Shown here: positions 18,386 to 23,697 of the stretch, one piece after another
How positions within the stretch are numbered: position 1 is the first letter of the stretch
Layout of the letters: every line of letters begins with the position of its first letter
Assembly (NCBI RefSeq): GCF_001975725.1
Contig: NZ_CP019434.1
Coordinates: forward strand, 372,001 to 436,000
Direction: 5' to 3'
DNA from: Acidihalobacter ferrooxydans
GTDB lineage: Bacteria; Pseudomonadota; Gammaproteobacteria; DSM-5130; Acidihalobacteraceae
Length of the DNA stretch: 64,000 nt
Program-made: the position numbers and the translations under genes
The notes under the pieces: generated by a model
Databases searched by the model: none
Seen by the model: the letters and a program-made list of their open reading frames with translations, nothing else
What the model was told of the DNA's origin: nothing

Positions 18386-18421
18386 ATCAACCCATGAGTC
18401 GTTCAGGAAACGCATAAACGC

Positions 18422-18514
18422 ATGATCCGAATTCCCGCCCTGCCAGTCCTGCTGGTAAATGTCGTAGTAATGAACGCCGTGGTAGCTCCACGGCGCGGCG
18501 GGTCCATGCGTTAA
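18422..18514 (+). CDS. ilvL: ilvGM leader peptide
   Basis: A 30-codon open frame preceded by AGGAAA. The peptide contains seven Val, three Leu and two Ile, concentrated in the run PVLLVNVVVMNAVV, the regulatory amino acids of the branched-chain pathway. The second half of the frame overlaps a GC hairpin and the antiterminator strand, and an intrinsic terminator follows 28 bases after the stop. This is the classic layout of a translationally controlled attenuator, as in enteric ilvGMEDA, whose leader is also rich in Val, Ile and Leu. The function of the peptide is only to stall the ribosome when charged tRNAs are scarce. Confidence 0.82.
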   Translation: MIRIPALPVLLVNVVVMNAVVAPRRGGSMR

Positions 18515-18577
18515 CGCTCTGAACAAACGAGATTTCACCCAGGACCCCCGCGCCGCAAGGCTCGGGGGTCTTTTTTT
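18475..18577 (+). promoter_or_regulatory. ilvGM transcription attenuator (1:2 hairpin, antiterminator, terminator)
   Basis: Three mutually exclusive pairings are visible. Hairpin 1:2 pairs CGCCGTGG (18475-18482) with CCACGGCG (18488-18495). The antiterminator pairs 18492-18505 (GGCGCGGCGGGTCC) with 18542-18554 (GGACCCCCGCGCC), 13 base pairs with one bulged C. The terminator pairs 18543-18550 with 18563-18570. The antiterminator shares GGCG with hairpin 1:2 and its 3-prime strand with the terminator, so a ribosome stalled on the Val codons would favour readthrough. Confidence 0.8.
18543..18577 (+). terminator. ilvGM leader intrinsic terminator
   Basis: Perfect 8-bp stem GACCCCCG / CGGGGGTC (18543-18550 and 18563-18570) with a 12-base loop, followed directly by seven T residues (18571-18577). 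It lies upstream of ilvG, so it acts as the attenuator terminator. Confidence 0.9.
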
Positions 18578-18683
18578 GCACGTATTGAAACTGGAGATAG
18601 ATCAATGTCCATCGTAGTACGCCTGCTCCCGCTGTTCGCCACCCGCAACCACAACATTGGCCAACCGACTGGAGCACATGATC

Positions 18684-20345
18684 ATGAATGGTGCGCAATA
18701 TCTCGCTGAAACACTGAGCCGACACGGCGTCGAGACGCTGTTCGGTTATCCCGGCGGCGCCATCATGCCGCTTTACGACGCGCTGCTCGACGCCCCTCTG
18801 CGCCACATTCTCACCCGCCACGAACAGGCCGCGGCCTTTGCCGCCAACGGTTACGCCCGCGCCACCGGCAAGCTGTGCGTCTGCCTCGCCACCTCCGGGC
18901 CCGGCGCCACCAACCTGCTCACCGGCGTCGCCGACGCGCTGGCCGACTCCGTGCCTCTGCTGGTCATTACCGGGCAGGTGGCGGGCGGATTGATCGGCAC
19001 CGATGCCTTTCAGGAAGTCGATGTGCTGGGCCTTTCACTCGGTGTCACCAAACACAGTTATCTGGTGCGCGACGCGGCCGAGCTTGCCGACGCCCTGCCG
19101 GAGGCCATTCGTCTGGCCCGCTCCGGTCGACCGGGGCCGGTGTGGATCGACGTGCCCAAGGACGTGCTGCTGGCAGACATGGGTGAGCACACGCCGCCCG
19201 CCGCGCCCCTGTCGCTCGATGCGGCGCCAGCGCCGGAGCCTCGCGCGGTGGCGCGGGCGCGCGAGCTGCTTGCCGCCGCCGAACGGCCGTTGGTCTACGC
19301 CGGCGGCGGCGTAGTGCTGGCCGGGGCGGTCGACGCGCTGCGCCGCTTCTGCGCACGCACGGACATCCCGCTGATCGCCACGCTCAAAGGTCTCGGCGCG
19401 CTGCCCGCGGACGCTCCGCTCAACCTCGGCATGCTCGGCATGCACGGCGCACCCGGCGCCAACCGTGCAGTGCAGGCCTGCGATCTGCTGCTGGTCGCGG
19501 GAGCGCGTTTCGACGACCGCGCCACCGGGTTGCTGGCGCAGTTCGCGCCGCAGGCGAAGGTGATCCACCTGGACGCCGATCCCGCCGAGATTGGCAAGTT
19601 GCGCACGGCGGATGTGGCGCTCTGCGGCGCGATGGCGCCGACGCTGGACGCACTGGGCGCGGCGCGCCCAGCCATCGATGCCTGGCGGCGTCGCTGCGTG
19701 CAATGGCGCGAAACCGGCGGCCACGCGTTGCCGCCGCCGGGCGCGGGCATCGCGCCGCAGCGGCTGTTGCGGGCGCTGGCCGAGGCGGCCGATGAACACA
19801 CCGTGATCGCCTGCGACGTCGGCCAGCATCAGATGTGGGTGGCGCAGCACTACGGGTTTCGCACGCCGCGCCAACACCTGACCAGCGGCGGGCTCGGCGC
19901 CATGGGCTTCGGCCTGCCGGCGGCCATCGGCGCGCAACTGGCCGCGCCGCAGGCGCGGGTCATCAACGTCAGCGGCGACGGCTCGTTCCTGATGAATGTG
20001 CAGGAACTGGCGACGCTCAAGCGCTACGACCTGCCGGTGAAAGTGCTGCTGTTCGACAACCAGTACCTCGGCATGGTGCGCCAGCAGCAGGCGCTGTTCT
20101 ACGCCGGGCGCTACCACTGCGTGGACCTGTCCGACAATCCGGATTTCGTCGAAGTGGCGCATGCCTTCGGTATTCCGGCACTGCGCGCGCAACGGGCCGA
20201 TGAAATCGATGCAGTGGTCGAGGCGCTGCTGGATACGCCGGGGCCGCTGCTGGTGCATGTGCCCATCGCACGCGAAGACAACGTCTGGCCGGTGGTCGCG
20301 CCGGGCCGGGCCAATCACGACATGATCGAGGAGATCCAGGCATGA
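18684..20345 (+). CDS. ilvG: acetolactate synthase II-type large subunit
   Basis: Thiamine-diphosphate enzyme that makes acetolactate or acetohydroxybutyrate, the first common step of Val, Leu and Ile synthesis. The 553-aa protein tracks E. coli IlvG closely: MNGAQYLAE start, [10 protein letters not shown], catalytic Glu47 in [44 protein letters not shown], and the ThDP motif [34 protein letters not shown] 18684 is chosen because GGAG sits 9 bases upstream; an ATG two codons earlier is possible. Its last four bases overlap ilvM. Expression should be governed by the leader attenuator 170 bases upstream. Confidence 0.96.
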
Positions 20346-20596
20346 ATCACGAATTGCAGATTATCGCCCGCCCCCAGACTGGCGCACTGGAGCGCATTCT
20401 GCGCACCTTGCGCGTGCGCGGCTTCGAGGTGCAGCGCATGCACGCGGATTTCGATACCGCGCGCGAACGCTTTCACCTGGGCGTGTGGTTGCAGGGCGAA
20501 CGGGCGCCTGACGTGCTGGAGCGCCAGTTGTTGCGACTGGCCGAGGTCGAGACGGTATTGGCCGTGCACGCCAGCACACGCAGCGCAGCGGTCTGA
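20342..20596 (+). CDS. ilvM: acetolactate synthase II small subunit
   Basis: An 84-aa protein with a single ACT-like domain, the size and type of IlvM, the small subunit that stabilises and activates IlvG. It begins [29 protein letters not shown], aligned with the start of IlvM family proteins. The ATG overlaps the ilvG stop (ATGA), and it ends six bases before a convergent gene, so the operon here is just ilvGM, without ilvE, ilvD or ilvA. Confidence 0.9.
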
Positions 20597-20602
20597 CGCG
20601 CC

Positions 20603-21184
20603 TTATAGCGGCAGCGGCGTATCGGGGCGCACCCTGAACCAGCAGGCGATGCTGGCGCGTTCGCGGCGCGCCGGGGTGACCTCGTGCGGGAAGTTCTCGC
20701 TGAGAAAGCAGACCGCATGACCGGATTCGGGCAGGATTTCGTCGATCAGCCTGCTCTGTGGCGTGTACAGGCGCAGCAGACCACCGTCGGTGCGCCGCCA
20801 GGCGTCGTTCAGATAGATGACCAGACTGACACGACGTGCGTTGTCATCCTGAAAACTGTCGACGTGGCGTTGATAATGCGCCCCGGGCGGATACAGCGCG
20901 TAATGCGCCTCGAAGTCCTCCAGACCGATGAACAGCGTGCGGTTGAGGTGATCGCGCAACGCTTCGAGCTGCACAAAGAGCCTGGCCTGTGCAGGGCTGG
21001 CGCCATCCAGCCACGCGGTCCGGTCGCCGCGAATGTCTGCGCGCAATCGCTGGCGCGGGCCTTTGCCGATGAGCGCCGGGGTGAGCGCATCCTGTTGGTC
21101 GAGCGTGTGCAGTTCGCGGCGCAGCGCGACGGCAAGATCGGCTTCGATAAAAGTGGCAAGCGAGATCCAGCCAACGCTGCACAA
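20603..21184 (-). CDS. 2-oxoglutarate/Fe(II)-dependent oxygenase family protein
   Basis: A 193-aa protein of the prolyl-hydroxylase-like SM-20/P4Hc type. The iron ligands are visible as HxD in QRHVDSFQDD and His in NFPHEVTP, with the conserved Arg of ARRERASIACWF that binds 2-oxoglutarate. Members hydroxylate protein or small-molecule substrates; none can be assigned here. It is convergent with ilvM. The second residue Cys and lack of a clear upstream ribosome site leave the exact start slightly uncertain. Confidence 0.85.
   Translation of the reverse strand: MCSVGWISLATFIEADLAVALRRELHTLDQQDALTPALIGKGPRQRLRADIRGDRTAWLDGASPAQARLFVQLEALRDHLNRTLFIGLEDFEAHYALYPPGAHYQRHVDSFQDDNARRVSLVIYLNDAWRRTDGGLLRLYTPQSRLIDEILPESGHAVCFLSENFPHEVTPARRERASIACWFRVRPDTPLPL

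Positions 21185-22477: not shown

Positions 22478-23697
<1,220 letters not shown>

Follow-up and report, generated by a model that had tools for sequence, protein, structure and literature searches.

The ilvGM Operon and Its Leader Peptide

We analysed a 64,000-nucleotide stretch of the Acidihalobacter ferrooxydans genome (hereafter, the window) and found that its two-gene ilvGM operon is very probably controlled by a canonical ribosome-mediated transcription attenuator. The parts of the attenuator are present, they exclude one another, and they are conserved in other bacteria; from these observations we infer that the leader is transcribed, that ribosomes stall on it, and that the operon responds to amino acids.

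The first gene, ilvG (18684–20345, plus strand), encodes the large subunit of acetolactate synthase II (NF006524, 816.7 bits, cut-off 738). Its start is the ATG at 18684, at the conserved MNGA (MNGAQ), and a further in-frame ATG is found at 18678. The second gene (20342–20596, plus strand) overlaps ilvG at an ATGA and encodes an ilvM-like small subunit with an ACT domain, which scored above the cut-off for PF13710 (51.6 bits) and below the cut-off of 68 for NF008362 (55.8 bits, E 3.2e-15). These matches agree with the first-pass annotation, which had placed an attenuator before a two-gene ilvGM operon.

The leader peptide ORF (18422–18514, plus strand) precedes ilvG and translates into the 30 amino acids MIRIPALPVLLVNVVVMNAVVAPRRGGSMR. 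It contains the seven Val codons that had been reported (18446, 18455, 18461, 18464, 18467, 18479, and 18482), together with three Leu and two Ile codons, and branched-chain amino acids (BCAA) account for 12 of its 30 residues. The leader ATG has a poor Shine-Dalgarno sequence, an AGGA about 13 nt away. A sigma-70 promoter scan upstream of the leader gave no match; a poor TTGCGC-N16-TATACG can be recognised there by eye. A seven-codon ORF, MSRSGNA (18394–18417), ends 4 nt 5' of the leader ATG and was not seen in the related locus L032. Because the leader's own Shine-Dalgarno sequence is weak, translational coupling of this ORF to the leader is conceivable.

Alternative RNA Structures of the Leader

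Folding placed a 1:2 hairpin at 18475–18495 (plus strand; 18475–18482 paired with 18488–18495), which is expected to form when no ribosome stalls. Antiterminator strand 2 (18492–18505, plus strand) codes for the Arg-Gly-Gly part of the leader and forms with strand 3 (18542–18554) a duplex of 13 bp with one bulged C. The energy of this 2:3 duplex was −33.1 kcal/mol, compared with −17.9 ± 3.0 kcal/mol in dinucleotide shuffles of the leader, and none of 2000 shuffles was as good. Strand 3 is also the 5' arm of the intrinsic terminator (18541–18577, plus strand), a 3:4 hairpin with a GCAA loop, whose stem starts at 18541 (−26.4 kcal/mol) and whose tail, TTTTTTT, occupies 18571–18577. A generic terminator scan did not pick up this terminator. 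The 1:2 and 2:3 helices share 18492–18495, and the 2:3 and 3:4 helices share 18542–18554. The first-pass annotation had described a 1:2 hairpin, a 13-bp antiterminator with one bulge, and a terminator with seven T residues, overlapping in a mutually exclusive way, and all of this is borne out by the folds and duplex energies. It had also proposed folding the RNA as a check, and the entire attenuator region folded with z = −3.7 against shuffles.

Ribosome stalling was simulated by removing from the fold the RNA under a ribosome halted at each codon (to about 14 nt past the A-site codon). When the ribosome was halted at GTA 18464 or GTG 18479, the 2:3 antiterminator was the best structure, even with the complete terminator included. 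The 1:2 hairpin and the 3:4 terminator stayed best for a halt at 18458 or 18461, and a halt at GTA 18482 covered part of strand 2 and brought the terminator back. Switching of the fold by stall position in this way is the textbook pattern of attenuation. On these computations, the antiterminator is predicted to exclude the terminator and to be chosen by stalling at BCAA codons.

The proposed mechanism is as follows. RNA polymerase would make the leader RNA while a ribosome translates the leader peptide. If valyl-tRNA (or leucyl- or isoleucyl-tRNA) were scarce, the ribosome would halt at the Val codons at about 18461–18482 and block strand 1; strand 2 would then pair with strand 3, the terminator would not form, and ilvGM would be transcribed. 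If BCAA were plentiful, the ribosome would pass, the 1:2 hairpin would form, and the 3:4 hairpin would terminate transcription at about 18577, turning ilvGM off. Read-through transcripts would carry, across the ilvG start, a second BCAA-rich ORF that may add a layer of control at translation.

A Second BCAA-Rich ORF at the ilvG Start

This second ORF (uORF2; 18605–18709, plus strand) is absent from the first-pass annotation. It encodes 34 amino acids between the terminator and ilvG, is preceded by a Shine-Dalgarno-like GGAG, and runs out of frame across the ilvG start, its stop lying 26 nt past the ATG. Counterparts, beginning MYCLIGVPVVPVVVDAPRHNQ... and MHSLIDVPVVPLVVDAPRRSQ..., were found in the two closest IlvG loci (L032 and L036), whose IlvG proteins are 65–66% identical. 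The window and these two loci share an ATG ORF that is preceded by a Shine-Dalgarno sequence, has 6–8 BCAA in residues 2–14, and takes the same relative frame over the ilvG start. An ORF of this kind turned up in 0.02% of the shuffled intervals made for the window and in 0 of 5000 for the two counterparts. It was absent from all 303 control gene starts and present at three of 51 ilvG loci, which fall in two lineages, leaving 0 of 48 others. Class- and phylum-level IlvG searches and one genome-contig scan revealed no carriers beyond genomes G088 and G211. The criteria of these tests were chosen after the ORF had been seen; even so, its occurrence in two lineages whose DNA has diverged argues for uORF2 being a real feature.

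It may be explained that uORF2 is translated constitutively and is coupled to ilvG, either by unfolding the ribosome site or by shielding from Rho, without any sensing of amino acids; its BCAA content would then stem from duplication of the leader or drift from it. We give this explanation a real but less than even chance. It is favoured by enteric loci that have a small ORF without BCAA enrichment at the equivalent place (ilvX-like, MNNSTKFCFSIFRTGN in E. albertii). A small ORF in Photobacterium, MLEIPPIQLSATHEQGKGEQR, ends on the ilvG start. With a ribosome on uORF2, opening the ilvG ribosome site was predicted to cost about 6 instead of 10.5 kcal/mol in the window, and 11–16 instead of 19 kcal/mol for the counterpart in G088. 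The cost dropped wherever the ribosome sat on uORF2, as constitutive coupling would predict, and folding gave no stall-specific unmasking of the site at BCAA codons. However, the BCAA enrichment is far above chance in both lineages, and a stop 26–35 nt past the ilvG ATG is poorly placed for reinitiation.

Alternatively, ilvGM could be under two BCAA sensors in series, the attenuator and then uORF2, which would tune ilvG translation by stalling. With plentiful BCAA, ribosomes would traverse uORF2 and the ilvG start and hinder initiation; with scarce BCAA, they would stall at uORF2 codons 3–10, over 40 nt 5' of the ilvG start, and the ilvG ribosome site would be kept open. The presence of the overlapping ORF in all three loci, its rarity in shuffles, control starts and other ilvG loci, and the lower opening cost in the window speak for such tuning. 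Against it stand the post hoc criteria, the restriction to two lineages, the lack of specificity of the opening cost for BCAA codons, and the fact that uORF2 is missing at most ilvG attenuators. Moreover, comparison of G088 with G211 in the non-overlapping part of the ORF showed, by eye, eight substitutions, one of them in a BCAA codon (Val to Leu). Because all eight change the amino acid, the comparison gives no hint that purifying selection acts on the uORF2 peptide. We give serial sensing, too, a real but less than even chance. To our knowledge, no bacterial ilv operon is known to have an overlapping second BCAA sensor, and a literature search of partial coverage turned up no published account in which a second BCAA ORF overlaps ilvG. 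If uORF2 does sense BCAA, it would provide an uncomplicated natural example of transcriptional and translational amino-acid sensing stacked on one gene.

Conservation and Distribution of the Attenuator

IlvG-type loci were collected from whole genomes and GTDB contigs. A BCAA-rich leader and a terminator precede ilvG in enterics, Serratia, Xenorhabdus, Photobacterium, Vibrio, Thalassotalea, Alishewanella, Rheinheimera, Aliagarivorans, Marinobacter, the genus of G088 and G211, and Aeromonas caviae. As a class, the attenuator is known and widespread in Gammaproteobacteria. The ilvG of A. caviae, which gave the best DNA match in the plasmid collection, comes with the attenuator and without the second ORF. 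An A. caviae sequence of 4.94 Mb with an ilvG attenuator (L154, NZ_AP026896.1) is filed as a plasmid and looks chromosomal.

Across ilvG loci, the terminator has the form ACCCCCGC-xxx-GNAA-xxx-CGGGGGT-Tn, with variants. Strand 2 in many of them is a CGCGGGGG-like segment coding for Arg-Gly-Gly or Cys-Gly of the leader, as in the window, and an RGG/CGA-like leader motif is common to the window and many other ilvG leaders. The 2:3 pairing was equalled by no more than 2% of shuffles in 14 of the 22 ilvG loci tested. How well the antiterminator is formed varies between loci: in the closest relative, G088, the 2:3 helix is no stronger than in shuffles. RNAalifold predicted the terminator from 20 loci, with compensatory changes in six of 12 pairs. 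The alignment of relatives that the first-pass annotation had suggested thus speaks for its proposal, both in this covariation and in the BCAA-rich leaders that occupy an equivalent position at many gammaproteobacterial ilvG loci.

We then used a covariance model, R1, built from 18 ilvG leader loci with the window left out. R1 matched the window at 18467–18574 (59.1 bits, E 7.2e-13, or 3.9e-11 genome-wide), and no second strong match was found over the whole window genome. An origin of the leader-like ORF and hairpins as fortuitous GC-rich sequence, with ilvGM regulated otherwise, can be rejected as extremely improbable: the region is GC-rich and has no promoter match upstream, but the shuffle tests on the fold and the antiterminator, and recognition by a model from other species (E 7e-13), speak against chance.

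Further R1 matches, at 26–40 bits, lay over 1 kb upstream of ilvG in six loci (L002, L033, L034, L119, L123, and L124), in front of another gene (L002:234–346, L033:146–256, and L119:297–409). By our reading, the gene between the distant attenuator and ilvG in these loci would be ilvC.

The Rfam family RF02744 covers the ilvG leaders of Escherichia albertii and Serratia marcescens at 152–174 bits (L046:2691–2981 and L052:2683–2985). In the window, it matched the terminator part only (17.8 bits, E 0.003) and did not reach the gathering threshold of 88 bits, so that the element is not filed under this enteric-specific family. The founder of RF02744, rev_39, is listed as the 5'UTR of Pectobacterium ilvG, from RNA-seq with an RT-PCR check (PMC4710047). 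Because RF02744 covers enteric ilvG leaders and has an ilvG 5'UTR as founder, the window element belongs to a known kind. RF02744, entered as "Rev39 5'UTR", amounts to the ilvG attenuator of enterics, a fact obscured by its name and scope. It takes in the narrow enteric part of an ilvG attenuator that is spread far more broadly through Gammaproteobacteria and that a better model such as R1 can find.

Matches to ctRNA_p42d, isrD, and similar Rfam entries look like generic terminator matches and were set aside. Elsewhere in the window, an IS3-type insertion sequence (22478–23697, minus strand) carries an ALIL frameshifting pseudoknot at 23303–23419 (RF01497, 99.6 bits).

Origin of the ilvGM Operon

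The window genome has one strong IlvG. A genome of the same genus (G001) and three of the same family have an IlvI-type paralogue only (43–44% identity), and R1 found no match of weight in these four relatives (best E 0.07 or worse). The ATP-grasp and Alpha-E genes upstream are kept in all four, where Alpha-E is not followed by ilvGM. The G+C content of ilvG is up to 0.73, above that of the surroundings. Because the four genomes have neither ilvGM nor the attenuator, the two were probably acquired together; acquisition of an ilvGM block that brought its attenuator along is the most economical inference. Finding the attenuator here extends the range of a well-understood switch to a lineage in which no other sampled member has one. 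The first-pass annotation had regarded it as noteworthy in this lineage; this holds within the family, where the four relatives lack ilvG and the attenuator, and does not hold for Gammaproteobacteria, where attenuators are widespread and enterics have an Rfam entry. A 2OG-Fe(II) oxygenase gene (20606–21184, minus strand), convergent with ilvGM, is absent from the four same-family genomes and may have arrived together with the operon.

Comparison with Known Systems

Vitreschak et al. (2004) have reportedly surveyed proteobacterial attenuators comparatively. The window shares with the ilvGMEDA attenuator (ilvL) of E. coli and Serratia, represented by RF02744, a BCAA-rich leader of about 30 amino acids before ilvG, a GC-rich, Gly-containing leader end that serves as strand 2, and the terminator form given above. 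However, its leader is dominated by Val with few Ile, its score is below the RF02744 gathering threshold, its operon consists of ilvG and ilvM only and is followed by the convergent oxygenase gene, and a second BCAA ORF stands in place of ilvX. Attenuation of ilvGMEDA and ilvBN has long been known (PMC1183508, a source that also refers to the survey of Vitreschak et al.).

The six loci with a distant attenuator resemble the window in matching R1 and differ in gene order, the attenuator not being adjacent to ilvG. In Corynebacterium and others, a BCAA-rich uORF before ilvB has been put forward as controlling acetolactate synthase genes through attenuation, according to the available part of that report (PMC10272879). 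The ilvB-II, ilvB-OMG, and ilvB motifs treated in that part differ from the window in lineage, RNA structure, and gene (ilvB), and no second overlapping ORF is described there. Two leader ORFs before one gene, ermB, are known from ermBL and ermBL2, which act by translational attenuation; as far as the available part of the source goes (PMC8274638), this arrangement resembles that of the window, but erythromycin is sensed instead of amino acids.

The ilvG attenuator of Marinobacter (L039 and L102) differs from that of the window in that about 27 nt separate the end of its terminator from ilvG, which leaves no room for a second ORF. Both have a leader with a run rich in Val and a terminator of the same family, and the 2:3 pairing of Marinobacter, at −34 to −37 kcal/mol, is about as strong as that of the window.
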